Assembly (NCBI RefSeq): GCF_003336875.1
Contig: NZ_QGNJ01000003.1
Coordinates: forward strand, 1 to 64,000
DNA from: Oleisolibacter albus
GTDB taxonomy: Bacteria > Pseudomonadota > Alphaproteobacteria > Azospirillales > Azospirillaceae
Direction of reading: 5' to 3'
DNA: 64,000 nucleotides
Below are positions 61 to 52,533 of the stretch, piece by piece (the first letter of the stretch is position 1; each line of letters starts with the position of its first letter). Under the pieces are notes generated by a model. That model was not told the origin of the DNA and did no database searches. It worked only from the letters and a program-made list of their open reading frames with translations. The position numbers and the translations under genes are program-made.

Positions 61-128
61 TCCGTGGTCTCCTTGTGAAACAGGATCCCACGGGGCCGCT
101 CATTTACACAAAAGATCTGACACCCTCC
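1..128 (-). mobile_element. Left end of an IS256-family insertion sequence, cut by the window edge
   Basis: On the minus strand the segment runs from a terminal sequence near 128 (GGGAGGGTGTCAGATC, then a T-rich stretch) to the transposase start codon at 60. That end resembles the terminal repeats of IS256-family elements. Position 129 onward reads as an IS630 transposase in the middle of its chain, so this element appears to have inserted into that gene. The other end lies outside the window, so target duplication cannot be tested. Confidence 0.6.
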
Positions 129-704
129 CGGCCGGACATCCTGAGGCAGCGGCTGGCCTGGTTCGAGGCCCAGCCCGATCTCGATCCCGAGCGGCTGATC
201 TTTATCGACGAGACCTGGGCCTCCACCGCCATGGCACGCACCCATGGCCGGGCGCCCCGGGGGGAGCGGCTGCGCATGGGCGTCCCCTTCGGCCACTGGA
301 AGACCACGACCTTCGTCGCCGGTCTGCGGCTGTCCGGCCTCGTCGCGCCGATGGTGCTCGACGGCCCCATCAACCGGCGATCCTTCGAGGCCTATGTCGA
401 TCAGGTCCTCGTCCCGGAACTCAGGCCCGGAGACGTCGTGATCATGGACAACCTTGCCAGCCACAAATCCCCGGCCGTCCGTGCCGCCATCGAAGCGGCG
501 GGCGCAGAACTACGGTTCCTGCCACCCTACAGCCCCGACTTCAACCCGATCGAGAACGCCTTCTCCAAGCTGAAAACGCTGCTGCGCAAGGCCGCCGAAC
601 GCACCGTCGATGGCCTCTGGAACGCCATCGGCACCCTCATCGACCGCTTCACGCCAACTGAATGCGCGAACTTCTTCACCGCAGCAGGCTATGAGCCAGA
701 GTGA
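129..704 (+). pseudogene. IS630-family transposase, C-terminal DDE domain, interrupted
   Basis: The reading frame from 129 begins in mid-protein with RPDILRQRLAWFEAQ and continues through a complete DDE_3-type domain. The first Asp is in LIFIDETW, the second in VVIMDNLASHK and the Glu in YSPDFNPIENAFSKLK, all features of the second reading frame of IS630-type elements. The N-terminal HTH half normally found upstream is absent, and the sequence before 129 is the end of an IS256-family element. I therefore read this as a gene disrupted by insertion. An ATG at 54 lies in frame but belongs to the IS256 segment. The missing half may lie beyond the window on the far side of the IS256 copy. Confidence 0.8.
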
Positions 705-2806: not shown

Positions 2807-2929
2807 GTGGCCCCGCTTCCTGCCCGCCGCATTGCTGCCCCCGGTCCTGCCGACAGCCGCTCCGCATCCGGCCGGACCGCCGCCATCGGGCCGGTCCCGG
2901 GCGGGCCGGCGGGCCGGGACGGCCGCTGA
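2807..2929 (+). CDS. Possible 40-residue leader ORF upstream of the HlyD gene
   Basis: A GTG at 2807 follows the best ribosome site in the region, AGGAGA at 2794-2799, with seven bases between. The frame runs 40 codons to TGA at 2927-2929, one base before the ATG of the HlyD-like gene, so translation could be coupled. The peptide is rich in Ala, Pro, Gly and Arg and ends IGPVPGGPAGRDGR. It resembles no known leader or bacteriocin precursor. Its low complexity fits a chance open frame in GC-rich DNA; only the ribosome site and the coupling argue for a gene. Confidence 0.3.
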   Translation: MAPLPARRIAAPGPADSRSASGRTAAIGPVPGGPAGRDGR

Positions 2930-2930
2930 G

Positions 2931-4196
2931 ATGTCGGCGCCCGAGGCGACCCGCCTGTTCCGCAAGGCGGCGCTGGACCGGCTGGCGTCACCGGACCAGC
3001 TGGACAAGGTCATGGTGGTGGCCCGGCCGCTGGACTGGCTGGCCCTGGCCGTGCTGCTGGCGCTGACGCTGGCGGCCCTGGTCTGGAGCATCACCGGCTC
3101 GATCCCCACGCGGGTCAAGGGGTCGGGCATCCTGGTCAATGCCGGCGGCCAGCTGTTCGCCGCCACCGCCACCGGCAGCGGCGCCGTGGTCGCCCTCAGC
3201 GTCGGTGTGGGGGACGCGGTGAGGGAAGGCGCCGTGGTCGCCCGCATCGCCCAGCCCGATCTGGTGCAGGGGGTGGAGAATGCCCGCGCCACCGTCGGGG
3301 AACTGGAGACACGGCTGGAGGAGATGCGCCGCCAGCTTGCCGCCTACGCCGAGGCGCGGCAGGCCAACGGCGCCGCCCGCCGGACCCTGTTCACCCAGGC
3401 CCTGACCAATGCCGAGGCCAAGGCCAAGGTGCTGGAGGCGCGGCTGTCCAGCGAGGAACAGCTGTTGAGCCGGTCCTTCATCACGGCCCAGCGCGTCAAT
3501 GCCACGCGGCAGGAACTGGCCGAGGCCAGGCAGGCCGCCACCGAGGCCCGCGGCCAGCTGATCCAACTGGAGGCCGACGAGATCGCCGCCCGCAACAATG
3601 ACGACCGCGAACTGCGCACGGCCGAGGGCAATCTGGCCGAGGCGCGGCGCAAGCTCCAGGATGCCGAACTGCTGTTGGAGCAGCGCCAGAGCGTGCGCAG
3701 CCCGGCCAGCGGGCGGGTCAATGAGATCAAGGCGCCGGTGGGGACGCAGGTCGCCGCGGGGACGCCGGTGGTGGCGGTGGAGAGCGGCCGCAGCGGGTTG
3801 CAGCTGGTGCTGTATCTGCCGCCCAAGACCGGCAAGCAGGTAAAGCCGGGCATGAGCGTGCGCATCGCCCCGTCGGTGGTGAAGAAGGAGGAGTTCGGCA
3901 CCCTGGTCGGAACGGTGGTCGCGGTGTCCGACTTCCCGTCCACGCCGCAGGCCATGCAGGCCACCCTGCAGAACGACCAGCTGGTCAACCAGTTCTCCAA
4001 GGACGGGCCGCCCTTCGCCGCCCGTATCGATCTGGTGCCCGACAGCGGCACGGCCAGCGGCTATCGCTGGGCCGGCGGCGCCGGACCGGAGCTGACGCTG
4101 ACCTCCGGCACGCCGGCCGACGCCGAGGTGACGGTGCGCGAACAGTCGCCCCTGTCCTTCGTCATTCCGCTGCTGCGGGCGGCGACCGGCCTATGA
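2931..4196 (+). CDS. NHLM-type bacteriocin system secretion protein, HlyD family
   Basis: 421 residues. A short cytoplasmic N terminus with FRKAALDRLASPDQLD, typical of NHLM-system HlyD proteins, is followed by one membrane segment at about residues 34-54. A periplasmic region comes next, with a long alpha-helical hairpin rich in Glu, Ala, Arg and Gln (about 105-255) flanked by lipoyl-like halves, for example SVRSPASGRVNEIKAPVG. It should act as the membrane-fusion adaptor that connects the two ABC exporters to the periplasm or an outer-membrane channel. The start at 2931 is chosen by comparison with a paralogous N terminus encoded at 14142-13930; an upstream in-frame ATG at 2832 gives an implausible Pro/Arg-rich extension. 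The stop overlaps the next gene as ATGA. Confidence 0.87.
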   Translation: MSAPEATRLFRKAALDRLASPDQLDKVMVVARPLDWLALAVLLALTLAALVWSITGSIPTRVKGSGILVNAGGQLFAATATGSGAVVALSVGVGDAVREGAVVARIAQPDLVQGVENARATVGELETRLEEMRRQLAAYAEARQANGAARRTLFTQALTNAEAKAKVLEARLSSEEQLLSRSFITAQRVNATRQELAEARQAATEARGQLIQLEADEIAARNNDDRELRTAEGNLAEARRKLQDAELLLEQRQSVRSPASGRVNEIKAPVGTQVAAGTPVVAVESGRSGLQLVLYLPPKTGKQVKPGMSVRIAPSVVKKEEFGTLVGTVVAVSDFPSTPQAMQATLQNDQLVNQFSKDGPPFAARIDLVPDSGTASGYRWAGGAGPELTLTSGTPADAEVTVREQSPLSFVIPLLRAATGL

Positions 4197-6385
4197 TGTC
4201 CGGACTGCGCGCAGTATGGCAGCGGGCGGTCCGCAGCAGCCGGCCGGGGACAGGTCGGCGCTGCAAGGTGCCCAGCGTGCTGCAGATGGAGGCGGTGGAG
4301 TGCGGCGCCGCCTCTCTGGCCATGGTGCTGGCCCATCATGGCCGCTGGGTGCCGCTGGAACAGTTGCGGGCCGCCTGCGGCGTCTCCCGCGACGGGGCCA
4401 AGGCCAGCAACCTGCTGAAGGCCGCCCGCGGCTTCGGCCTGACCGCCAAGGGCTTCAAGAAAGAGGTGGAGGGGCTGGCCGACCTGCCGCTGCCGGCCAT
4501 CGTCCATTGGAACTTCAACCATTTCCTGGTGCTGGAGGGGATGGCCGGGAACAGGGTGTTCCTCAACGATCCGGCCAGCGGCCCGCGCACCGTGACACTG
4601 GAGGAGTTCGGCGAGGGCTTCACCGGCGTGGTGCTGGCCTTCGAGAAGGGGGAGCGGTTCCAGCCCGGCGGTGCCCGTCCCGGTCTGCTGTCGCTGCTGG
4701 CGACGCGGCTGCGCTCGTCGCGGCCGGCGGTGCTGTTCATCGCCCTGGCCGCCCTGGCCCTGGTGGTGCCGGGTGTCGCCATCCCCGCCTTTTCCCGAAT
4801 CTTCGTCGATGGTGTGCTGGTCGGCGGGCAGGACGGCTGGCTGAAGCCGCTGCTGGTCGGCATGGTGCTGACCGCGGCCCTGCGCGCCGGGCTGACCCTG
4901 GTGCAGCAGACGCTGCTGCTGCGGCTGGAGACGCGGCTGGGTGTCGTCGGCGCCGCCCGCTTCGTCTGGCATGTGCTGCGTCTGCCCATGGGCTTCTTCA
5001 ACCAGCGCCACGCCGGCGACGTGGCCCAGCGCATCGCCGCCAATGACCGGGTGGCCCGGCTGCTGTCGGGCGAAATGGCGCAGAGCGCCCTGGATCTGGC
5101 CACCTGCCTGTGCCTGGGCCTGATCGTGCTGAGCTATGATCCGCTGCTGGGCGCCGTCACCGTGGGCATGGCCCTGCCCAACATGCTGCTGCTGCGTGCC
5201 ATCGCCGCCCACCAGCGCCAGTCCAGCCAGCGTCAGGCCTCGGCCGGGGCCAAGCTGGCGGCCGCCTCCATCGGTGCCCTGCAATCCATCGAAACGCTGA
5301 AGGCGTCGGGTCTGGAGAACCAGGCCTTCGAGCGCTGGGCCGGCCATCAGGCCAATCTGCTGGAGGTGCGGCGCGACCTGGGCCAGATGGAGGTGCTGCT
5401 GGCGGCGGCACCGACGCTGTTCCGCACCCTGGCCAATGTGGTGGTGCTGGGGCTGGGGGCCACGCGGGTCATGGACGGGGCCATGACCATCGGCACGCTG
5501 GTGGCGTTCCAGAGCCTGGCCGAGAGCTTCTCCGAGCCCATCGGCCGCTTCGTCGGCCTGTCCAGCCAGGCCCAGTCGGCGCGGGCCGATCTGTCGCGCA
5601 TCGACGATGCCTTCGCCAACGCCACCGACCCCTGCCTCGATCTGCCCGAAGGCGGGCTGCCGCCGGCCCGCGGCGAGGTGGAGATCGAGGGGCTGAACTT
5701 CGGCTACAGCCCGCTGGACCCGCCGCTGATCCAGGATTTCTGCCTGCATCTCAAGCCCGGCATGCGCGTGGCCCTGGTCGGCGGCTCCGGCAGCGGCAAA
5801 TCCACGGTGGGCCGGCTGCTGACCGGGCTGGCCCAGCCCTGGTCGGGCAGAATCCGCATCGACGGCCGTCCGCTGGCCGAGATCCCGGCGGCGGAGCGCG
5901 CCCGGCTGCTGGCCGCGGTGGATCAGGACATCTTCCTGTTCGAGGGGACCGTGCGCGACAACCTGACCCTGTGGGACCGCTCCGTGCCCGATGCGCGGCT
6001 GCTGCGGGCGCTGGAGGATGCCGCCCTGCTGGACGAGGTGGCGGCCCGCCCCGGCACGCTGGAGGCGCGGGTGGAGGAGGGTGGCGGCAATTTCAGCGGC
6101 GGCCAGCGCCAGCGGCTGGAGATCGCCCGTGCCCTGGTCAGCGATCCGTCGGTGCTGGTGCTGGACGAGGCCACGGCGGCGCTGGACCCGACCACGGAGA
6201 AGGAGATCGATGACCGGCTGCGCCGCCGCGGCGCCACCTGCATCATCATCGCCCACCGGCTGAGCACGGTGCGTGACTGCGATGAGATCGTGGTGCTGCA
6301 GCGGGGCCGCATCGTCGAACGCGGCAGCCACGAGGCGCTGCTGGCCCAGGGCGGCGAATATGCCCGCCTGATCTCCGCCCACTGA
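4193..6385 (+). CDS. NHLM-type peptidase-containing ABC exporter (ABC1)
   Basis: 730 residues. An N-terminal C39 peptidase is intact: oxyanion Gln31 and catalytic Cys37 in QMEAVECGAASL, His110 in HWNFNHFLVLEG and Asp126 in FLNDPASGP. This domain cuts substrates after a double-glycine-type leader. A six-helix transmembrane domain follows (about 160-450), then an ATPase with Walker A GGSGSGKST near 529, Q-loop VDQDIFLF, signature FSGGQ near 633, Walker B VLVLDEATAALD and H-loop IIAHRLST. All ATPase motifs are present. The ATG overlaps the stop of the HlyD gene by four bases, and the next ABC gene starts 15 bp downstream, so this is one operon. Expected role: leader removal and export of a ribosomally made peptide. 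Confidence 0.9.
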   Translation: MMSGLRAVWQRAVRSSRPGTGRRCKVPSVLQMEAVECGAASLAMVLAHHGRWVPLEQLRAACGVSRDGAKASNLLKAARGFGLTAKGFKKEVEGLADLPLPAIVHWNFNHFLVLEGMAGNRVFLNDPASGPRTVTLEEFGEGFTGVVLAFEKGERFQPGGARPGLLSLLATRLRSSRPAVLFIALAALALVVPGVAIPAFSRIFVDGVLVGGQDGWLKPLLVGMVLTAALRAGLTLVQQTLLLRLETRLGVVGAARFVWHVLRLPMGFFNQRHAGDVAQRIAANDRVARLLSGEMAQSALDLATCLCLGLIVLSYDPLLGAVTVGMALPNMLLLRAIAAHQRQSSQRQASAGAKLAAASIGALQSIETLKASGLENQAFERWAGHQANLLEVRRDLGQMEVLLAAAPTLFRTLANVVVLGLGATRVMDGAMTIGTLVAFQSLAESFSEPIGRFVGLSSQAQSARADLSRIDDAFANATDPCLDLPEGGLPPARGEVEIEGLNFGYSPLDPPLIQDFCLHLKPGMRVALVGGSGSGKSTVGRLLTGLAQPWSGRIRIDGRPLAEIPAAERARLLAAVDQDIFLFEGTVRDNLTLWDRSVPDARLLRALEDAALLDEVAARPGTLEARVEEGGGNFSGGQRQRLEIARALVSDPSVLVLDEATAALDPTTEKEIDDRLRRRGATCIIIAHRLSTVRDCDEIVVLQRGRIVERGSHEALLAQGGEYARLISAH

Positions 6386-6400
6386 GCCGATGGAGCGCGC

Positions 6401-9271
6401 ATGACCACGCTGGAGACAGCGGCGGAGACGTCCCGGACGGGACCGCTGTTCGAGGGCGGCTATCGCCACCCGCTGGTGCTGGACGGCGCCGGGGACGGCT
6501 ATTGGCGGGTGGAGGACGGGTTCTTCGACCTGTTCGCGGTGGAACGCGACGGCGCCGGCCGTGACGGCCGCCGCCACCATCTGTTCCGGGTGCCGCAGGG
6601 CGGTGTGCTGCTGGATGTGGCGCCCGCAGCCGGGCTGCATCTGCTGGCCGTGGGTTCGCTGGGGTCCCGTGCCCGCCGCTGCGGCGCGGCGCCGGACGCG
6701 GCGGCGGCGGAGGCCTGGATCGTGCGGCTGGCCCAGGCCGCCGCCTTGGAGATGCCCTGGTCGGAGCGGGTGGCCGAACCGGGCGCACAGATTCTGCCCG
6801 CCGGTGCCACTCTGGCGGCCGATGCCCGGCGCGTGCTCTGGCTGCGGGTGGAGCGGGGCACGGCCGATCTCCTGGGCTTCCACCCCGTGGCCGCCGGGGC
6901 GCCGCCGCTGCCGCTGGTGGACCGGCTGTGGCTGACGGCCCCGGAAGAGACGACGCTGGTCCTGGAGCCCACTGGGGCTGTGCCGCCGCCGCTGGCGCGC
7001 TTCCACGCCTTCGTGCTGGAGGCCGTGGCCGAGCGCCTGCGCCGTCAGGCCCGGGCCGGCGAGGCCGTGGCCGGACAGCGCGCCCGCGACGAGGCCGACG
7101 CGCTGTCGCGCGGGCTGGGCCGGCTGGCCGGCGCCCTGGACGGGCGCGACCATAGCCCGGCGGTGGAGACGGGCGAGCCGCTGACCACGGCCATCGCCCG
7201 GATCCTGCTGCATCTGGGCGAGCCGATGCCGGCACTTACCGCCGCGCCGCCGCCGGGCACCGGTGTGGACGAGACCTTCGCCCAGATGGGCCTGCGCCGC
7301 CGGCGCGTGCTGCTGCGGCCCGGCTGGGAGCGCAGCGCCGCCGACGCCCTGCTGGCCTTCCTGGACGAGGAGAAGCGGCCCGTGGCCCTGCTGCCGGCGG
7401 GAAAGGGCTGGCGTGTGGCCGGGCTGGGCCTGGATGCGCCGCTGGATGCGGATCTGGCGGCCCGGCTGCAGCCGGAGGCCTGGCAGCTCTACCGTAGTTT
7501 CCCGGCGGACCCCCTGCGCTTCCGCGACCTGATGCGGCTGGGCGCCCGCGGCAATGGCCGCGACCTGCTGCGTCTGGCCCTGGCGGGGGCGGCGGCGGCC
7601 CTGGTCGGGCTGGCCGTGCCCAAGGGCATGCAGATCGCCTTCGACAGTCTGGTGCCCAATGGCGAGGTGCCGGCGCTGCTGGCGCTGATGGCGGGGCTGG
7701 TGGCGGCGGCCATCGGCCAGGGCGCCTTCGAGCTGGTGCGCGGGCTGGCGCTGCAACGGCTGGAGGCGCGGTTCGAGATCAATGCCGCCCCGGCGCTGAT
7801 GGACCGGCTGCTGCGGCTGCCGGCCCGCTTCTTCCGCGGCTTCACCGCCGGTGATCTGGCCGACCGGCTGCTGGGCATCCAGAATGCCCGCGCCATCCTG
7901 GGCAGCAATGTCACGGGCGGGCTGGTGGGCGCCGTGTTCGGGCTGGTGGGGTTCGGGCTGCTGCTGAGCTATGACGGGCGGCTGGCCCTGGTGGCCCTGG
8001 TCCTGTCGCTGGCCACCACCGCCGTCATCGTCGGCACCTCGCTGGCCGAACTGCGGCACGAGCGCGAGCGGATCCGCCATCAGGGCCGGCTGGACGGCTT
8101 CGTGCTGCAACTGATCATGGGCATCGGCAAGCTGCGCACGGCGGCGGCGGAGAAGCGGGCCATGGCCGAGTGGGCGCGGCGCTATGCCCACCAGCGCGAC
8201 CGCTTCGTGGCCGGGCGGCGCTGGGCCGCGGTGGAACAGACAGTGATGGCCTTCCTGCCCACCCTGTGCACGGCCGTGCTGTTCGGGGCGCTGGCCTACT
8301 TCCTGAAGGCCGACCTGACGGCGGCGGCCACCAGCGGGAATGTCGCCGCGGGCGAGGCCCGGCAGGCCATGACCACCGGCGCCTTCGTCGCCTTCTCCGC
8401 CGCTTTCGGGCAGCTGATGGCGGCCATCGTCGGGCTGGGCAAGGCCTCCTCCGGCCTGACCATGGCCCTGCCGCTGATCGAGCGGGCCAAGCCTCTGCTG
8501 GAGGCGGTGCCCGAGGGGACGGCGGAGTCCGAGCCGCCGGGTCTTCTGCAGGGCGGTGTGGCGCTGCGCCAGGTGCGCTTCCGCTATGGCAGCGACAGTC
8601 CGGCGGTGCTGGACGGTCTGGACCTGGAGATCGAGCCGGGCCAGTTCGTGGCCCTGGTCGGCCCGTCGGGCAGCGGCAAATCCACCATTCTGCGCCTGCT
8701 CCTGGGCTTCGACCGGCCGGAAACGGGCGAAGTGCTGTTCGACGGCAGGACGGCCAGCCGGCTGGACATGGCGGCGGTCCGCCGGCAGATCGGTGTCGTG
8801 CTGCAGAACGGCCGCATCTCGGCGGGGTCGCTGTCGTCCAACATCCTGGGCCCGTCGGGACTGCGGCTGGAGGATGCCTGGGCCGCCGCCCGCATGGTGG
8901 GGCTGGACCGGGATATCGAAGAGATGCCCATGGGCATGCACACCGTGCTGATGGAGGGCGGCGGCACCCTGTCCGGCGGCCAGCGCCAGCGCCTGCTGAT
9001 CGCCCGCGCCCTGGTGCACCGGCCGCGGCTGCTGCTGCTGGACGAGGCCACCAGCGCCCTGGACAACCGCACCCAGGCCATCGTCACCGAGACGCTGAGC
9101 AAGCTGAGCGTCACCCGCATCGTCATCGCCCACCGGCTCAGCACCATCCAGGGTGTCGACCGCATCTTCGTCATCGAGAAGGGGCGGCTGGTGCAGTCCG
9201 GCCGCTACGAGGCCCTGATCGACAGCCCCGGTCCCTTCGCCACGCTGGCCCAGCGCCAGCTGGTGCAGTGA
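6401..9271 (+). CDS. NHLM-type ABC exporter, ATP-binding/permease (ABC2)
   Basis: 956 residues, start preceded by GGAG. The first ~370 residues form a large soluble N-terminal region without peptidase residues, as is usual for the second ABC protein of NHLM loci. A transmembrane domain (about 395-680) and a complete ATPase follow: Walker A GPSGSGKST near 753, Q-loop VVLQNGRI, signature LSGGQ near 856, Walker B LLLLDEATSALD and H-loop IVIAHRLST. It probably pairs with the upstream peptidase-ABC protein as a heterodimer. Between 8170 and 9321 another frame stays open through the conserved ATPase; it is a GC-driven shadow. Confidence 0.9.
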   Translation: MTTLETAAETSRTGPLFEGGYRHPLVLDGAGDGYWRVEDGFFDLFAVERDGAGRDGRRHHLFRVPQGGVLLDVAPAAGLHLLAVGSLGSRARRCGAAPDAAAAEAWIVRLAQAAALEMPWSERVAEPGAQILPAGATLAADARRVLWLRVERGTADLLGFHPVAAGAPPLPLVDRLWLTAPEETTLVLEPTGAVPPPLARFHAFVLEAVAERLRRQARAGEAVAGQRARDEADALSRGLGRLAGALDGRDHSPAVETGEPLTTAIARILLHLGEPMPALTAAPPPGTGVDETFAQMGLRRRRVLLRPGWERSAADALLAFLDEEKRPVALLPAGKGWRVAGLGLDAPLDADLAARLQPEAWQLYRSFPADPLRFRDLMRLGARGNGRDLLRLALAGAAAALVGLAVPKGMQIAFDSLVPNGEVPALLALMAGLVAAAIGQGAFELVRGLALQRLEARFEINAAPALMDRLLRLPARFFRGFTAGDLADRLLGIQNARAILGSNVTGGLVGAVFGLVGFGLLLSYDGRLALVALVLSLATTAVIVGTSLAELRHERERIRHQGRLDGFVLQLIMGIGKLRTAAAEKRAMAEWARRYAHQRDRFVAGRRWAAVEQTVMAFLPTLCTAVLFGALAYFLKADLTAAATSGNVAAGEARQAMTTGAFVAFSAAFGQLMAAIVGLGKASSGLTMALPLIERAKPLLEAVPEGTAESEPPGLLQGGVALRQVRFRYGSDSPAVLDGLDLEIEPGQFVALVGPSGSGKSTILRLLLGFDRPETGEVLFDGRTASRLDMAAVRRQIGVVLQNGRISAGSLSSNILGPSGLRLEDAWAAARMVGLDRDIEEMPMGMHTVLMEGGGTLSGGQRQRLLIARALVHRPRLLLLDEATSALDNRTQAIVTETLSKLSVTRIVIAHRLSTIQGVDRIFVIEKGRLVQSGRYEALIDSPGPFATLAQRQLVQ

Positions 9272-9313
9272 TGTCTCCAGGCCCTTGGCCGTCGATCCAA
9301 TCCGGAGTCCGCC

Positions 9314-9850
9314 ATGCGTAAAGTCCTCTACATCATGGGCCTTCTCAACGACGCCGACATGGCCTGGATGGCCGGGGCCGGCCGGCGCCTGCGCCCGCGG
9401 CCCGGCGACGTGCTGATCCGCCAGGGCGAGCCGGCGGATGATCTGTTCATCGTGCTGGGAGGGGAGGTCACGGTGGAGCTGGCCGACGGCAGCGTGCTGG
9501 CCCGCATGGGCAGCGGCGAGGTGCTGGGCGAGATGTCCTTCGTTGACCGCGCGCCGCCCTCGGCCACGGTGCGGGCCGGCGAAGGCTGCCAGGTGCTGGC
9601 CCTGGACAAGCGCGCCATGGAGGCGCGGCTGGCCGGCGACAGCGGCTTCGCCGCCCGATTCTACAAGGCGCTGGCCGTGTTCCTGGCCGACCGCCTGCGC
9701 AGCACCACCCAGCGCATGACCACAGGGCCGGACGGGTCCATCGGCGGCGACGCCCTGCTGGCCGACGAGTTGGACGAGACCGTGCTGGACCAGGTGTCGA
9801 TGGCCGGTCTGCGCTTCGAGCAGATGCTGAAGATCCTGGCGGGGGGCTGA
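9314..9850 (+). CDS. Cyclic-nucleotide-binding-domain protein at the end of the export operon
   Basis: 178 residues. A cNMP-binding beta-roll is visible: RPGDVLIRQGEPADDLFIVL, then GSGEVLGEMSFVDRAPPSATV, which contains the phosphate-binding-cassette-like Gly-Glu pair and the basic/hydrophobic tail. There is no DNA-binding domain after it. The C terminus (about 120-178) is helical and ends DQVSMAGLRFEQMLKILAGG. It lies 42 bp after the second ABC gene in the same orientation, so it is likely the last cistron. Similar small proteins accompany some NHLM clusters; a role as regulatory or assembly subunit of the exporter is inference. The ligand is unknown. Confidence 0.75.
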   Translation: MRKVLYIMGLLNDADMAWMAGAGRRLRPRPGDVLIRQGEPADDLFIVLGGEVTVELADGSVLARMGSGEVLGEMSFVDRAPPSATVRAGEGCQVLALDKRAMEARLAGDSGFAARFYKALAVFLADRLRSTTQRMTTGPDGSIGGDALLADELDETVLDQVSMAGLRFEQMLKILAGG

Positions 9851-9888
9851 TCCGATCCCGGCCGGTCCCCGCGGCGGGGCGAGGGCCC

Positions 9889-11829
9889 TCAGCCCGCCGG
9901 CGTCAGGTCGATGACGCGGTCGGCCAGGGCCGTGATCTCGGGCCGGTGCGAGGTCAGCACGATCATCATGCCCTGGGCGCGCAGCGCCTCCAGGATCGGC
10001 CGGACCGTGGCCACATCGAGGAAGGCCAGCGCCTCGTCCAGCAGCAGCAGACGCGGACGCCGGGCCAGGGCGCGCGCCAGCAGCAACTGATGCACCAGCC
10101 CGCCGGGGAACAGGCCCTGGGCCACCAGCGTCTGCACCCCCATGGGCAGGGCCGTCACCGCCGGTTCCAGCCCGACGAAGCGCAGCGCGGCCCAGATGGC
10201 CGGTCCGTCCAGCGGGCCGTTGCCGGCCACGGCCGAGCGCACGGTCTGCACGGCCACGCTGTCGTCCTGGAACACGGCGGCCACATGGGCGCGGTAGCCG
10301 GCAGGGTCGAGATGGGCCAGGGTGACGCCATCGACGGCGATACGGCCGGTCGTGGGCTGGTCCAGCCCGGCCAGCAGGCGGATCAGCGTGGTCTTGCCCA
10401 CACCGGACGGCCCGACCAGGGCCAGCACCTGCCCCCGCGCCAGCTGGAAGCCCAGGCCATGGAACAGGGGACGGGCGGCCCCGGGATGGGTGAAGGACAG
10501 GTCCTCTGCCGTCAGGCTGTCGAAGGCCGGCACCGGCGCGCCGGCGCCGCTGTCCGGCGGCAGGGCCAGCACCGGCTCCAGCGCGGCCAGATCGCGTCGG
10601 CCGGAGCGGTCCAGGCCCAGGGCATGTCCAAGGCGGGCGGACCCGGCCCCGGCCTGCAGGCCCAGCAGCAGGGCGGCCAGCAGCAGCGGACCCGACGTCA
10701 GGATGCCCGGGTCCTGCCCCGGCGGCAACGTCGGCAAGGGCGCAACGGCCAGCACCGGCGGCAGCGTCAGCAGGGCGCCGGCGAAGCGCAGCCGGTCGGC
10801 CGCCGCCCGCCGCCAGGCAGCCGACCGATCCGCCGCCAGTTCCCGCGTCAGAAGGGCCTGCACGCGGCCGCTCAGCCAGGCGGCGGTGCCGGCCTGGCGC
10901 TGCTGGGGCAGGGCGCGGACCAGGGCCGTGAGCAGGGGACCCGACTCCTCCCGCGCCCGCCCGGCCCTGCGGTTCTGCCGCTCGGCCCCTTCGGTCAGGA
11001 CCCAGCCGAGGCCGGTCAGGGCCGCCAGCGCCGGCGATACGGCCAGGGCCGTGGCCGGCGACAGCCAGGACAGGGCGGCCAGGGGCACCAGCAGGCCGCA
11101 CAGACCCCAGTCCAGGGCCGAGGCCGCCGCCAGCCGGCGGTGGGCGCCGGCCAGTCCCCGCATCGCGGCCGTGGCCCAGGCCGTGGCCGGCTGGCGGCGC
11201 ACGCGCTCCGCCGGCAGGTCCAGCAGCCGGTCCCACACCGTCGCCTGCAGGCGCTGGGAGATCAGGCGGCCGCGGTGGCGCCCGTCGGCCAGGCGGCTGA
11301 CCGTGGCCAGGGCCGCCGCGGCCCCGGCCAGGGCGAGACCGGCCGCCAGCCCGGTCCAGCCCGGCCCCCGCGCCAGCAGCAGGGCCGGCAGGGCCTGGGC
11401 CAGCGCCGCGGCCAGCGGCCACGCCCAGGAGGGGGGCGCCCCGTCCAGCCGGTGCAGCGACCACCAGCCGTCCAGCCCGCGCCGGTCGCGGGGGAAGCGG
11501 GGATAGGGCATGAAGGCGTCGGAACCGAGGGCCGTAGCCGTCCCCTCGTCCAGGGGGCGGCCGGGTTCATCCGCCGCCGTCACCAGCAGCGGGATCCTGC
11601 CCGGCCGGGGCAGCAGCAGGGCCGGCCGGCCGGCCAGCGTCACCAGCAGCGGCCCCAGGTCGCGGCGCCACCAGTCCGCCCCATGGGGGCGGACACGGCG
11701 CAGGCGCAGGCCCAGCGGCGGGGCCGCCTGCCGCCAGCGGGCCGGGTCGGTGCCGTCCGTCCGCGCATGTCCACGGCCGCTCTGGAGATGATCCAGCAGG
11801 GTGCGCAGCACCGTCTCATCCGGCGGCAT
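9889..11829 (-). CDS. Second NHLM ABC2-like exporter subunit, degenerate signature motif
   Basis: 646 residues. It lacks most of the large N-terminal region of its plus-strand paralogue but keeps a ~130-residue stretch similar to the part just before the membrane domain. A hydrophobic domain follows, then an ATPase with Walker A GPSGVGKTT near 470, Q-loop AAVFQDDSV, Walker B LLLLDEALAFLD and H-loop VLTSHRPEI. The signature is not LSGGQ but reads LFPGGLVHQLLLARAL near 572. Its start overlaps the stop of the peptidase-ABC gene by 14 bp. The protein probably forms a heterodimer with that partner, with its changed signature completing a non-catalytic ATP site. It ends 38 bp from the convergent plus-strand operon. 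Confidence 0.85.
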   Translation of the reverse strand: MPPDETVLRTLLDHLQSGRGHARTDGTDPARWRQAAPPLGLRLRRVRPHGADWWRRDLGPLLVTLAGRPALLLPRPGRIPLLVTAADEPGRPLDEGTATALGSDAFMPYPRFPRDRRGLDGWWSLHRLDGAPPSWAWPLAAALAQALPALLLARGPGWTGLAAGLALAGAAAALATVSRLADGRHRGRLISQRLQATVWDRLLDLPAERVRRQPATAWATAAMRGLAGAHRRLAAASALDWGLCGLLVPLAALSWLSPATALAVSPALAALTGLGWVLTEGAERQNRRAGRAREESGPLLTALVRALPQQRQAGTAAWLSGRVQALLTRELAADRSAAWRRAAADRLRFAGALLTLPPVLAVAPLPTLPPGQDPGILTSGPLLLAALLLGLQAGAGSARLGHALGLDRSGRRDLAALEPVLALPPDSGAGAPVPAFDSLTAEDLSFTHPGAARPLFHGLGFQLARGQVLALVGPSGVGKTTLIRLLAGLDQPTTGRIAVDGVTLAHLDPAGYRAHVAAVFQDDSVAVQTVRSAVAGNGPLDGPAIWAALRFVGLEPAVTALPMGVQTLVAQGLFPGGLVHQLLLARALARRPRLLLLDEALAFLDVATVRPILEALRAQGMMIVLTSHRPEITALADRVIDLTPAG

Positions 11830-13930
11830 GGCCGGCCTCCGGTCCCAGGCGGATCACCTGATCGTAGCTGTCCGCATCCTCGTCCCGCCGGGTCACCACC
11901 AGCAACAGGATGCCGCGGCGGCGGATGGCGGCGCGGATACGCCGGGCCAGCGGCGGTTCGAGCCGGTCCAGCAGCTCGTCCAGCACCAGCAGCTTCGGTG
12001 CCCGCAGCAGGGCCATGGCCAGCAGCAGCCGGCGCTGCTGCCCGCCGCTGAGTTCGGCGCCGCCGGTGTGCAGACGCAGATCCAGCCCGCCGCGGGGGGC
12101 GAGGTCGGCGGCAAGCTCCACCTCCTCCAGCACGGTCTGGAGCCGGTCATCGTCGAGGGTCAGCCCGCGGCAGAGATTGTCGCGCACGCTGAGCGGCAGC
12201 ACGCTCCAGCTGTCATCCAGCAGCAGCGCCGTGCCGGGCGGGGCCGCGGCCGGCGGCACGCCATCCAGCCGGATCCGGTCGCCGGCCTCGCTCTCCAGCC
12301 CGCTCAGCCGCCGCACCAGCACCGACTTGCCGCTGCCCGACGGGCCGAGGATGGCCAGCTGCTGTCCCGGCGCGGCCCGCAGGGTGAGATCGTGGAACAG
12401 GACCCGGCCGGAGATCAGATCGGTGCAGCCCAGGCTCTCCGCACACAGCCCGTCGGGCCAGAGCGGCGCCGGCTCCACGGTCCCGATGTCGGGACCCGGT
12501 GTCCGCGGCCCGCCCGCGCCGGCATCGGTCTGCGCCGTCTCGCCGCCCTGGTCCAGGGTGCGCCGGTGCAGCAGCAGGCTTTCCAGCGGGGTCCATCCCT
12601 CCCAGCGGGCCAGACGGGCGGGGAAGCCTGCGGCCAGTTCCGGCAGCAGCAGCACCAGCAGGGCCGGCGTCATCCGCCCCTCTGTCAGCAGCAGGGCCGC
12701 CAGCAGCACCGACAGCACGCGGCGGGCCGCACCCAGGGCGGGGCGGGTCCGATGCAATAGACGGTGGGTGGCGGCGGCCCGGTCGGTGCTCTCCAGGGAA
12801 AGGGCCAGCCGCCCCCCCAACTCCGCCACCAGCTCCGCCTCGGCTCCGCCCAGCCGGTGGCGGCCGTAATCGGCGAAGATGTCGGCCCCCGGCGCCAGTT
12901 GCGGCACGGCCGCGGCCTGGATGGGGGCCGGATCGCCCCGGCGCAGGAACGGCCGCAGCAGCAGCGCGGTTTCCGCCGCCAGCAGGGCAGACAACAGCGA
13001 TCCGGCCAGGGGGGCCGTTCCCCAGAGCAGCGCCAAGGCCAGCAGGGCGGTCACCGCCTGCGTGGCCAGGGCCGGCAGGTCGCTGCGGGCCGCCAGATCC
13101 AGTCCCAGCCGGGCCTGACCGGCCAGCGTGGCGGGGGCATGGCTGAACAGGCTTCGGGTGGGCAGCCGCCACAGCCGGTCCAAGCCGGCGGCCAGTTCGT
13201 GCCGGCCCAGCCGTGCGGCCACGGACTGCAGCCCGCGTTCCGCGCCCAGGGTCGCCAGCAGGGCGGCGAGGCCCAGCGCGCCGGCGGCGGCAAGGGCGGC
13301 CGGGGTGGCCGCCATGGGTGTTGCCGGCAGGTCGGGCGCCAGCATGTCCGCCACCAGCCGGGCCAGCGCCAGACAGGCCGCGATCTGCATCAGGCCGGCA
13401 ACCAGCCCGGCGGCGATGGCCCCGGCCAGCGCCCACCCCTGTCCCGTCAGCAGATCGCGCAGGCCGGCCAGGGGCCGGAAGCCGCGGCCCTGGCGCTTGG
13501 CCGTGTCGGTGGGGACCAGGCGCAGCACCACGCCGGAGAAATCATCGGCGAAATCCGCCAGCGGCACCCGGACGGGACCGCAGGCCGGATCGTTGATCAG
13601 CAGGCTGTCGCCATCCATCCGCTCGACCACGACGAAATGGATGAAGGCGCGGTGGGCGATGAAGGGGACGGGTTGTCCGCCCAGCCGGTCGATATCGCAG
13701 CGGAAGGCGCGGAGCTGGAAGCCGTAGGCCTCCGCCAGCCGGCGCAGGGTGCGGGCGCTGGTGCCCAGCCGCGTGTCGCCGCACAGCCGGCGCAGCGGCT
13801 CCAGCCCCACATGGCAGCCATGGACGCCCAGCAGGATGGCCAGGGCGGCCAGCCCGCATTCCGCCACCTCGGCCTGACGCACGGCGGGGGTGGCGGGGGC
13901 GGCGGTGCGGACAGCGGCGGGCTTGCGCAT
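11816..13930 (-). CDS. Second NHLM peptidase-containing ABC exporter subunit, degenerate Q- and H-loops
   Basis: 704 residues. The C39 peptidase keeps its key residues: Gln19 and Cys25 in QAEVAECGLAAL, His98 in FIHFVVVE and Asp114 in LINDPACGP. The membrane domain is strongly diverged. In the ATPase, Walker A GPSGSGKSV, signature LSGGQ and Walker B LLVLDE are intact, but the Q-loop glutamine is replaced (LLLDDSWSVLPLSVRDN), the D-loop reads LDRLE and the H-loop histidine is Arg (LLVVTRRDED where the paralogue has IIIAHRLST). The ATG overlaps the upstream stop as ATGA. Likely role: leader processing and export, with ATP turnover carried by the partner's site. Not a pseudogene by any visible lesion. 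Confidence 0.87.
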   Translation of the reverse strand: MRKPAAVRTAAPATPAVRQAEVAECGLAALAILLGVHGCHVGLEPLRRLCGDTRLGTSARTLRRLAEAYGFQLRAFRCDIDRLGGQPVPFIAHRAFIHFVVVERMDGDSLLINDPACGPVRVPLADFADDFSGVVLRLVPTDTAKRQGRGFRPLAGLRDLLTGQGWALAGAIAAGLVAGLMQIAACLALARLVADMLAPDLPATPMAATPAALAAAGALGLAALLATLGAERGLQSVAARLGRHELAAGLDRLWRLPTRSLFSHAPATLAGQARLGLDLAARSDLPALATQAVTALLALALLWGTAPLAGSLLSALLAAETALLLRPFLRRGDPAPIQAAAVPQLAPGADIFADYGRHRLGGAEAELVAELGGRLALSLESTDRAAATHRLLHRTRPALGAARRVLSVLLAALLLTEGRMTPALLVLLLPELAAGFPARLARWEGWTPLESLLLHRRTLDQGGETAQTDAGAGGPRTPGPDIGTVEPAPLWPDGLCAESLGCTDLISGRVLFHDLTLRAAPGQQLAILGPSGSGKSVLVRRLSGLESEAGDRIRLDGVPPAAAPPGTALLLDDSWSVLPLSVRDNLCRGLTLDDDRLQTVLEEVELAADLAPRGGLDLRLHTGGAELSGGQQRRLLLAMALLRAPKLLVLDELLDRLEPPLARRIRAAIRRRGILLLVVTRRDEDADSYDQVIRLGPEAGHAAG

Positions 13931-14142
13931 CAGGCCAGGACCAGAAGCAGCAGGGTCAGCCCGATCAGCAGCCAGGACATGAGGCCGATGCCATGGGCGG
14001 CCGCGGGCCGGTACACCGGCCGGTCGAGATGCTCGGGCGAGGCCAGCCGGTCCAGCGCGGCCTGACGGAACGGTCCCGGCGCCGCGGGCGTCCGCTTCTC
14101 TTCCGGACGTCCCTGGTCTTGACTCTGTTCCCCGCCGGACAC
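13930..14142 (-). CDS. 70-residue membrane protein resembling only the N terminus of the NHLM HlyD adaptor
   Basis: GTG start at 14142 with AAGGAG about 11 bases upstream; stop overlaps the next ATG (ATGA), so the two are translationally coupled. Residues 24-40, FRQAALDRLASPEHLDR, match FRKAALDRLASPDQLDK of the complete HlyD protein encoded at 2931, and both are followed by a membrane segment (MSWLLIGLTLLLLVLA here). The chain ends right after that segment, so the whole periplasmic adaptor is absent. No downstream remnant of the missing part exists, because the peptidase-ABC gene begins at once. It may be a docking or assembly subunit, or a worn-down adaptor replaced by the complete one in trans. 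Confidence 0.75.
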   Translation of the reverse strand: MSGGEQSQDQGRPEEKRTPAAPGPFRQAALDRLASPEHLDRPVYRPAAAHGIGLMSWLLIGLTLLLLVLA

Positions 14143-44573: not shown

Positions 44574-45449
<876 letters not shown>

Positions 45450-45451
45450 GC

Positions 45452-46462
45452 TCAAACCTCCGCGTCGCTGGCAGCGACATCGATCACGGGCCGCGTGGCG
45501 CGCGGCAGCGTGCCCTTGCCCGCCAGGGCCTGGGCCAGACGGGCATAGACGGCGACGGCGGGCACGGTGGGGAACATGCGCAGCGCCGGCTGCGCTTCCC
45601 GCGCCGCCTTGCCGAAGGCCGCATTGTAGTCCACCGGCTCCAGCACCGGTGCTGTGTCGCCCAGATGATCGATCAGGGTGGCCAGCACTTCCCGGTCCAC
45701 GCTCTTGCGCTTGACATACTGGGTCGGCAGCACGCCCAGGATGCGCAGGCCGGGATTGAGCCGGCGCTGCACCTTCTGGATGGTGTCCAGGATCAGGTTG
45801 ACGCCCATGGCGTCGATGGGTTCGGTCCGCACCGGGATCAGCACCCGGTCCCCGGCGGTCAGGGCCATGCTGGTGACGATGCCCAGGTTCGGCGGCGCAT
45901 CGATCAGGATGTCGTCATAGCGGTCGCGCACCGGCTCCAGCGCCTCGCGCAGGATCACCTCGGCCCCGGCTTCGCGCGTGCCGTCGGCCTTGGCCAGGTC
46001 GATGTGGGAGGCAACCACGTCGAAATGCTCGCCCGCGGTGATGGCGTCGGCCAGCGGCGTGCCCGACAGCACCACATGGGCCACCGTCTGCCCGGCCTTG
46101 TACAGCGCCAGCGCCGGCAATCCCAGCGCCACCGTGGCGCTGGCCTGGGGATCGCAGTCGATCAGCAATACCTTGCGCCCGGCCTGGGCCAGGGCATAGG
46201 CCAGATTGCTGGCCGTGGTGGTCTTGCCCACGCCGCCCTTCTGGTTGGCCAGCACGATGACACGGGCCGCACGGGCCGCCGGTGCCTCCTCCCGGCGCAG
46301 CAGGTCGATCACCGGCTCGGGGATGGCTTCCTTGTTGCCTTCCCAGCGGCTGATCCGCGCCTTGTCATAGCTGCGCGCCAACCGGCTGTTGAGCCAGTCC
46401 GCGAATTGTCCCTGGTTCATGTTCCGCGCGCTGCGGAACGCCCGAAGTTCCTGCCCGTCCAT
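45452..46462 (-). CDS. parA: ParA-family ATPase with N-terminal HTH
   Basis: 336 residues from the ATG at 46462; an upstream in-frame start at 46516 is less likely. Residues 1-55 form an HTH-like domain ([20 protein letters not shown], then [18 protein letters not shown]), characteristic of plasmid ParA proteins that repress their own operon. The deviant Walker A is [20 protein letters not shown], the A' region [16 protein letters not shown] and Walker [19 protein letters not shown]-driven ParA binds DNA and moves ParB-parS complexes. Direct repeats just upstream (46499-46527) are candidates for its operator. Confidence 0.9.
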
Positions 46463-52230: not shown

Positions 52231-52533
52231 ATGACGAGCATGAGTGAAGCCGCCCTGATCGAGTTCTACCGCCTGGTCCGCGAGGACGAGGCCGTGATGG
52301 GCCGGCTCGCCGCCTGCCGCACTCCGGAGGAGCTGGTGGCCGCCGTGGTGGAGGAGAGCGCCCGCCGCGGCCTGAGCGTGGACGCGCCCAGCGTGGAGCT
52401 GGCGCTCAGCGATCTGAAATCCTTCATCGATCTGGCCAATGACGATGCCCTGACCGACCTGGAGCTGGAGATCGTCTCCGCCGGGTCCGGGGCCATCGGC
52501 GGCTATGGCAGCAAGGACGGCTGGCCCGGCTGA
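52231..52533 (+). CDS. Nif11-like leader peptide precursor (RiPP precursor candidate)
   Basis: 100 residues, or 97 if the ATG at 52240 is used. The N-terminal ~75 residues have the Nif11-like pattern: MSEAALIEFYRLVREDEAVM, then helical text with CRTPEELVAAVVEESARRGL. The leader ends LTDLELEIVSAGSG, comparable to the E-L-(D/E)-x-V-(A/S)-G-G end where C39 peptidases cut. The presumed core is short and Gly-rich, AIGGYGSKDGWPG, and has no Cys, Ser-Thr cluster or other obvious modification site apart from one Ser. NHLM exporters handle such precursors; two are encoded at 2931-14142. No modification enzyme is adjacent. It could also be a divergent Nif11-domain protein with another role. Confidence 0.72.
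   Translation: MTSMSEAALIEFYRLVREDEAVMGRLAACRTPEELVAAVVEESARRGLSVDAPSVELALSDLKSFIDLANDDALTDLELEIVSAGSGAIGGYGSKDGWPG

Follow-up and report, generated by a model that had tools for sequence, protein, structure and literature searches.

The window analyzed here, the first 64,000 nucleotides of contig NZ_QGNJ01000003.1 of the alphaproteobacterium Oleisolibacter albus (RefSeq assembly GCF_003336875.1), contains two peptide-exporter operons, a canonical NHLM operon on the plus strand and a diverged operon on the minus strand, which face each other tail to tail at a distance of 38 bp (Table 1). A preliminary description of this DNA, made from the letters alone, had reported two facing operons with like gene order and a 38-bp gap, and this layout was recovered in full when all of the genes were located; its plus-strand HlyD was likewise confirmed as a gene, but with the 5′ end at the ATG at 2931 rather than at 2807. 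According to excerpts of Haft 2010 (PMC2887384), the NHLM exporter is a three-gene transporter. The plus-strand genes for HlyD, ABC1, and ABC2 all pass their NCBIfam cut-offs, whereas ABC1m and ABC2m of the minus strand, with TIGR03796 and TIGR03797 as their best NCBIfam matches, score 238 versus 853 bits and 176 versus 709 bits, respectively, and hence belong to the wider NHLM exporter kind, below the NHLM equivalog level. The minus set shares with the NHLM TransFuse/TransCleave/TransABC system (TIGR03794/03796/03797) the gene order of adaptor, C39 ABC protein, and ABC protein, the Nif11/NHLP-type precursors, the C39 triad, and, in its 70-residue stub, the HlyD N-terminal motif; it differs from that system in that the pair lies far below the cut-offs, the adaptor consists of the N-terminus alone, one ATP site is degenerate, and a complete NHLM exporter stands beside it. 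Overall, the minus set is an exporter of NHLM type whose adaptor is reduced, and the arrangement of two exporters recurs in other bacteria. In the whole O. albus genome (4.69 Mb), only ABC1 and ABC1m matched C39 at E 0.001. A terminator scan of the gap between the operons found none, and Rfam and tRNA scans of the window gave no matches.

Table 1. Genes of the two facing operons and candidate cargo peptides (G and L numbers denote genomes and loci, respectively; G000 is the O. albus genome).
Feature	Position	Strand	Evidence
Complete NHLM HlyD (TransFuse), 421 aa	2931..4196	+	TIGR03794 315.5 bits (cut-off 156.2)
Canonical ABC1, C39 peptidase-permease-ATPase, 730 aa	4193..6385	+	TIGR03796 1002 bits (cut-off 853); FSGGQ signature and H-loop intact
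Canonical ABC2, permease-ATPase with an extended N-terminal region, 956 aa	6401..9271	+	TIGR03797 775 bits (cut-off 709); LSGGQ and H-loop intact
Cyclic nucleoside monophosphate (cNMP)-binding, bacteriocin-transport-associated protein, 178 aa	9314..9850	+	PF00027 69.6 bits; TIGR03896 133 bits, below the cut-off of 161
ABC2m, diverged partner ATPase, 646 aa	9889..11829	-	Walker A, Walker B Glu, and H-loop intact; FPGGL replaces LSGGQ
ABC1m, diverged C39-ABC protein, 704 aa	11816..13930	-	C39 Cys25/His98/Asp114 and LSGGQ kept; H-loop His replaced by Arg
Mini-HlyD stub, 70 aa	13930..14142	-	FRQAALDRLASPEHLDRP segment and single C-terminal hydrophobic helix; no periplasmic domain
Candidate cargo, Nif11-type precursor	52231..52533	+	Leader end LTDLELEIVSAG, core SGAIGGYGSKDGWPG; TIGR03798 22.7 bits, below the cut-off of 32.3
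NHLP precursors of the SFSAFILYGPPYPD class	G000:C40:126205-126519 (L052 9191-9526)	+	Also L042 2230-2562, L057 13866-14228, L058 14859-15209, L120-L127

The FRQAALDRLASPEHLDRP segment of the stub resembles the N-terminus FRKAALDRLASPDQLDKV of the complete HlyD in the window (tblastn E 6.5e-6, small database), and the stub shares with NHLM HlyD proteins an N-terminal FRxxALxRLssPExLD segment and a transmembrane (TM) helix. It ends at this helix, without the periplasmic hairpin, lipoyl, and barrel domains of a membrane fusion protein; the stubs as a group align to the HlyD N-terminus, that is, to the cytosolic segment and the helix, with the periplasmic part gone. No model in Pfam or NCBIfam describes this mini-HlyD: the window stub had no match in either at E 0.01, and 16 stubs had no HlyD match at E 1 and no convincing match of any kind. 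A profile of the 16 stubs recovered the HlyD N-termini of other genomes with E values down to 1.5e-12. A profile of nine stubs matched frames no longer than 106 aa, at E ≤1e-9, in 11 of 82 genomes of the Azospirillum family, to which O. albus belongs; G002 and G009 were new to that profile, and in all 11 genomes the stub lies beside the diverged pair. Among 385 genomes of the class, short-frame matches at E 1e-4 occurred in the O. albus genome itself, in G456 and G443, and as a copy in G021, all others lying in frames of at least 385 aa; 398 genomes of the phylum yielded no further short-frame match, three matching frames of 198–247 aa being set aside. Weak short-frame matches (E 0.02–0.08) in G005, G064, and G032 were left out of the stub count.

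The possibilities that the stub is an open frame arising by chance or a full HlyD disrupted by a frameshift were rejected: ABC1m starts on the stub stop codon, a tblastn search with HlyD (E 1e-8, >55 bits) revealed no HlyD piece adjoining the minus set, and the profile recovers both HlyD N-termini and further stubs. The overlap of stub stop and ABC1m start reads TGATG, its plus-strand counterpart being the ATGA of the HlyD stop and ABC1 start, and the stub begins with GTG, with a Shine–Dalgarno-like AAGGAG upstream. The preliminary description had left the second pair without an adaptor of its own; a complete adaptor is indeed lacking, but the pair has its own truncated adaptor gene, conserved in relatives. 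In the hemolysin system, as summarized in parts of PMC10386944 (after Zhao 2022), three HlyB dimers carry two HlyD molecules each, cytosolic residues 35–50 and the TM region of HlyD contact HlyB, and contact between HlyD and the C39-like domain is required for secretion. What had been called an HlyD-like stub is a conserved small protein corresponding by position to the HlyD cytosolic segment and TM region that bind the transporter in HlyB/HlyD (PDB 7sgr, 8dck; PMC10386944, in part), a system from which the minus set differs in lacking the periplasmic part of the adaptor and in keeping the C39 catalytic residues in ABC1m. A literature survey by title and start of abstract, mostly outside subscription journals, found no description of a truncated HlyD or of a second NHLM pair.

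Two further short or intermediate forms were seen. A 55-aa near-copy of the HlyD N-terminus of G021 (L107 7201-7368, plus strand; E 1.4e-6) was rejected as a stub and read as a tandem partial duplication beside the full gene; it shows one route by which a stub could arise. In a Magnetococcales metagenome-assembled genome (MAG), a 180-aa form (L070 14263-14802, plus strand) has a stub-like start and continues past the helix without a Pfam match, and is perhaps an intermediate of HlyD reduction.

The search of related genomes that the preliminary description had proposed showed the diverged pair to recur at 24 loci, as 16 split and 8 fused pairs, in Azospirillaceae, Telmatospirillum, Rhizobiales, Magnetococcales, and an Acidobacteria MAG. 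These loci are the window, seven Azospirillum genomes (L033, L035–L040), G001, G002, and G009 (fused), 12 loci of a named collection, and G456. The 12 were retained from 20 after removal of duplicates (L056, L060, L063, L066, L067), of weak matches to the nucleotide-binding domain (NBD) only (L073, L074), and of L065, which falls in the diverged group but keeps the NBD1 His and runs to the end of its stretch; G443 was left out because the motifs of its pair are canonical and the pair falls with the canonical rows in the tree. G456, which came to light through its stub alone, has a fused diverged pair adjacent and a canonical operon nearby, and the first half of this fused pair is placed with the fusions of L070 and L071. 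The L071 exporter, also from a MAG, spans two frames (L071 9956-14105, plus strand), which may reflect a true frameshift, a boundary between genes, or a faulty assembly.

A stub is present at 19 of the 24 loci; L070 has the longer form, and L062, on a short contig, could not be judged. Stub scores with the first profile are weak in L069, L071, and L072 (E 0.009–0.4) and are backed there by the motif and by the position directly after the exporter gene. The stub comes first in the operon in 2 loci (window, L055), upstream and divergent in 10 (L033, L035–L040, L057, L058, L068), and last, after fused proteins, in 7 (L042, L069, L071, L072, L105, L106, L175). That stub and pair have been rearranged yet stay together argues for a functional link. 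The preliminary description had also spoken of a much diverged second pair and suggested trees, and the ABC1 tree, whose rows are C39-ABC proteins found with NHLM queries only, agrees with it: 24 diverged rows (including L065) separate from 35 canonical ones with support of 100/100, and in an enlarged quick tree (with G456, G443, and 7 more canonical rows) 25 separate from 43 with a Shimodaira–Hasegawa-like approximate likelihood ratio test (SH-aLRT) value of 100. The window ABC1m falls within the 16 split pairs (100/100), on a long branch whose finer placement is weak (95/71). A plasmid collection searched with ABC1m gave no match at 1e-30, a strict threshold, with relatives sharing 28–44% identity.

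More detailed comparison of the ATP-site and C39 motifs, read from aligned columns at all 24 loci, showed a one-sided pattern of loss. Throughout, the NBD1 signature is kept (SGGQ, or SGGE in 4), and the NBD2 signature is altered with the NBD2 H-loop His kept (24/24 in each case). In the split pairs, NBD1 invariably retains LSGGQ and has lost the H-loop His (16/16 each), with the Walker A Lys lost in 4/16 and the Walker B Glu replaced by G or D in 7/16, and NBD2 retains the Walker A Lys, Walker B Glu, and H-loop His and has lost LSGGQ (16/16 each). Of the 8 fused proteins, all have an SGGQ or SGGE signature in NBD1, 7 keep the NBD1 His, and 3 have lost the NBD1 Walker A Lys; in NBD2, all 8 keep the His and show a milder alteration of the signature. 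One rule fits these motifs, namely that the consensus site would be formed by Walker A, Walker B, and H-loop of NBD2 together with the signature of NBD1, with the opposite site weaker. Because the motif asymmetries of ABC1m and ABC2m complement each other, the two should function as an obligate heterodimer, in which one site is competent and the other degenerate. TmrAB and TM287/288, which are not known to contain a C39 peptidase, provide a parallel. Both are described in parts of PMC8277102 as heterodimers with one consensus and one degenerate ATP site, and the minus pair matches this arrangement by motif.

The C39 Cys and His are present at 24/24 loci and the Asp at 23/24. ABC1m bears the marks of a peptidase-containing ABC transporter (PCAT), namely a PF03412 match of 107 bits, the Cys-His-Asp triad, and a PCAT fold, the best PDB fold for its AlphaFold2 monomer (predicted local distance difference test, pLDDT, 76.4; predicted TM score, pTM, 0.52; moderate quality) being PCAT1. 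For the ABC2m monomer (pLDDT 82.3, pTM 0.65), the best folds were HlyB (8dck) and then PCAT1. ABC1m thus resembles PCAT1 (PDB 4ry2) and ComA in its succession of C39, transmembrane domain, and NBD, in its fold, and in its triad. PCAT1 and ComA are homodimers that are not known to work with an HlyD, whereas the motifs of the minus pair point to a heterodimer with asymmetric ATP sites.

A canonical NHLM ABC1 accompanies the diverged pair, in the same locus or genome, in all 22 testable cases (L062 and L072 could not be judged); it lies within the examined stretch at 16 loci and at another site in six Azospirillum genomes. A canonical HlyD was found in 21 of the 22; that of L068 is cut by the end of the stretch, and that of L055 lies outside the examined stretch. 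Among the 82 family genomes, 29 carry an NHLM HlyD over the TIGR03794 cut-off, including 11 of 11 stub genomes (hypergeometric 2.5e-6, kinship ignored). Furthermore, in a tree of 42 canonical-type ABC1 proteins, which left out that of G456 and further NHLM systems of G030, G043, G051, and G057, a subclade of 21 contains 20 from pair-bearing genomes, with G044 as the exception; its support is 82/99 (not a starred fork), and SH-aLRT 99 in the enlarged quick tree. The 20 include the six Azospirillum genomes with unlinked pair and canonical exporter, and the ABC1 of L055 and a second copy in G071 fall outside the subclade. As judged from these sequences, 20 pair-bearing genomes each have at least one canonical exporter of a single lineage, even where the two are unlinked. 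At L061 (3528-4469, minus strand; PF00211) and L059 (3578-4120, minus strand; recognized by eye), a gene with an adenylate/guanylate cyclase domain adjoins the NHLM HlyD, which is of interest because several NHLM operons carry a cNMP-binding protein.

With respect to cargo, precursors with GG/AG leader ends were found at 15 of 23 scanned pair loci, counting the Nif11-type precursor of the window, which lies 38 kb from the exporters and has a similar peptide beside the fused pair of G001; none was found at L175, the 24th locus. GNAT-like genes are present at 14 of the 24 loci (tblastn E 1e-5, the gene of L072 being itself a query), four others having been confirmed by Pfam, and the precursors beside these four have Lys-containing cores. 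Two classes of precursor can be told apart. Those of class 1, beside the diverged pair in Azospirillum and Telmatospirillum, have leaders ending in ELSDEELDLVAGG or close to it and variable cores. Those of class 2 have leaders ending in LLDLASGG and, in six genomes (O. albus on contig C40, G001, G002, G009, L057, and L058), the identical core stretch SFSAFILYGPPYPD, which is unusual because NHLP cores are described, in parts of PMC2887384, as hypervariable. A variant core, TSFSAFILYGPNDAPPK, occurs in G044, G045, and G051, with a more distant form in G057, and second copies in O. albus, G002, and G009 have only the core start SFSAF in common. In most cases inspected, a GNAT-like gene lies near the class 2 precursor. 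Strong class 2 matches (E 1e-27 or better) were obtained in 8 of the 82 family genomes, all of which, G044 included, have the canonical subclade; G030, G043, G071, and G076, which have subclade and pair, gave no class 2 peptide at that threshold. This tracking of the subclade hints, though the evidence is thin, that the conserved peptide is cargo of the canonical exporter and that the variable peptides go to the diverged pair. The O. albus genome has further scattered Nif11-like precursors far from the exporters (L053 2712-4018, L054 4857-5576, and that of the window), one of which adjoins a GNAT gene.

Parts of PMC9505594 report that NHLP/GNAT clusters yield fatty-acylated selidamides in one studied alphaproteobacterium and that the phaeornamide cluster combines an NHLP precursor, a GNAT, and the transporter genes phaT1/T2/T3. 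The loci described here resemble selidamide clusters in that an NHLP/Nif11 precursor, a GNAT gene, and an exporter of NHLM type occur side by side, and differ from the phaeornamide cluster in having two exporters. By analogy, the GNAT proteins may acylate Lys or Orn of the peptides here. The cassettes also bear on a reading in which pair and stub have no cargo of their own and modulate the canonical exporter, as a mixed or regulatory ring or as a leader protease for which transport is secondary. The association with one canonical lineage and the degenerate NBD1, which in some split and fused forms has even lost the Walker A Lys, would agree with such a role, but in L035–L040 the precursor–GNAT cassettes adjoin the pair while the canonical operon lies elsewhere, and the NBD2 motifs and C39 residues are retained; we regard modulation as decidedly improbable.

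The reading preferred here, to which we give roughly even chances, is that the minus set is a second NHLM-type exporter with its own peptide, docking through the mini-HlyD and borrowing the conduit of the canonical HlyD. ABC1m would have a Nif11/NHLP precursor of its own, in many cases encoded next to a GNAT acyltransferase gene, and would cleave the leader of this precursor after GG/AG, with cleavage presumably coupled to export, and the ABC1m/ABC2m heterodimer would carry the core peptide across the inner membrane. In the same way as the HlyD N-terminus contacts HlyB, the mini-HlyD would dock on the C39/TM region, a step proposed because of its homology to NHLM HlyD and its position. The diverged dimer would thereby gain a place in the inner-membrane ring of the canonical HlyD, and the periplasmic tube of that HlyD, with a TolC-type pore, may then export both products. 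The sharing of HlyD is proposed because of the co-inheritance with the canonical exporter.

Several results weigh against this reading. The stub corresponds to the HlyB-binding region by position alone, and its profile found no solved HlyD in the PDB (best E 1). The rhizobial loci L059, L061, and L064 have the pair and a canonical HlyD and ABC1, with no stub by profile; in the quick tree, the fused forms of L069–L072 and L175 are placed in the diverged group with less certainty; and no GNAT gene lies in the examined stretch of 10 of the 24 loci, the window and L033 among them. Selection on the pair is looser than on the canonical genes, and that on the stub less firmly placed, as set out below. 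Finally, in the 98%-complete genome G443, a stub (L176 9596-9898, minus strand; C196) directly precedes an ABC1–ABC2 pair that groups with the canonical proteins in the tree and whose C39 and ATP motifs are intact, and no HlyD of this genome reaches the NHLM cut-off; a stub therefore need not imply a shared NHLM HlyD. By its sequence, G443 is an independent case of a mini-HlyD. The preliminary description had envisaged two exporters sharing one HlyD, or a four-ABC assembly: the co-occurrence with one complete NHLM lineage that this predicts was found, but G443 counts against sharing as a general rule.

G443 is the best support for the main rival to a shared conduit, namely delivery to the periplasm by an exporter confined to the inner membrane, in which the mini-HlyD clamps the diverged dimer or a ring without a tube and the processed peptide goes no farther than the periplasm or inner membrane; it could, for instance, be acylated and act there or be passed on later. 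The loss of the HlyD periplasmic part in 19 stubs fits such an exporter as well. The constant canonical partner counts against it, because a self-sufficient exporter would not need one: canonical ABC1 goes with the pair in 22/22 testable loci, with 20/22 in one subclade, and a canonical HlyD, complete or cut at an edge, in 21/22. We consider this rival somewhat unlikely. A composite machine, with canonical and diverged dimers in one inner-membrane ring under a single HlyD tube and with full HlyD and mini-HlyD as alternative docking positions, seems unlikely too, and slightly more so; if it existed, one conduit would export two classes of acylated peptide, and the ratio of stub to HlyD would set the docking sites per exporter.

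Uniqueness of the minus set to this genome and a ratio of nonsynonymous to synonymous substitution (dN/dS) near 1 had been named in the preliminary description as signs of a decaying duplicate; the 24 loci speak against the former and the measured ratios of the pair against the latter. The values, calculated by the Nei–Gojobori method, come from relatives, the window copy being without a close one. Four Azospirillum genomes gave 0.28–0.38 for ABC1m and 0.22–0.37 for ABC2m, and three gave 0.10–0.13 for the canonical ABC1; the fused pair of G002 and G009 gave 0.21 (versus 0.03 for the canonical ABC1), and the pair of L057 and L058 gave 0.32 and 0.35 (versus 0.05). Altogether, the pair ranges over 0.21–0.38 and the canonical ABC1 over 0.03–0.13, a difference of ∼2- to 8-fold. 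The pair is constrained, though more loosely than the canonical exporter. For the stub, the best-resolved value is 0.29 (L035/L037; bootstrap 0.13–0.52); four other comparisons gave 0.32, 0.37, 0.53, and 0.56, with three of the intervals reaching >1, and two very close pairs with few changes gave 1.3 and 1.9, so that the ratio is not firm, because the stub is too short.

Decay of a copy of the plus operon would account for these raised ratios, for the ABC1m and ABC2m scores far below the family cut-offs, and for the truncated HlyD. It is nevertheless highly improbable, since the diverged group is deep and common to distant bacteria, the frames are open, purifying selection acts in three separate lineages, and the same one-sided signature loss occurs in 24/24 loci, and it was rejected on the grounds of conservation, selection, and patterned motif losses. 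With similar sets recurring in other bacteria, the locus looks like a working two-exporter system and not like one with a decaying copy.

Elsewhere in the window, a transposase-like DDE gene lies at the left end (75-704, plus strand), which we take to be of IS630 type, and a ParA gene with a weak N-terminal helix-turn-helix match (44574-46462, minus strand) is accompanied by ParB, so that the 378-kb contig may belong to a secondary replicon.

Membrane fusion proteins are usually treated as a single periplasm-spanning unit. In these loci, the part that docks on the transporter appears to have been split off in evolution from the part that forms the conduit, and to have been kept by itself in many lineages, next to a complete relative wherever the diverged pair could be judged. 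The separated docking part offers a natural way to ask what the role of the HlyD N-terminus is, whether ABC exporters can share a conduit, and how two exporters that both cut leaders are kept distinct in one bacterium. The finding also points to unstudied and possibly acylated peptides in Alphaproteobacteria like Azospirillum and Rhizobium, among them one whose core is strikingly conserved.

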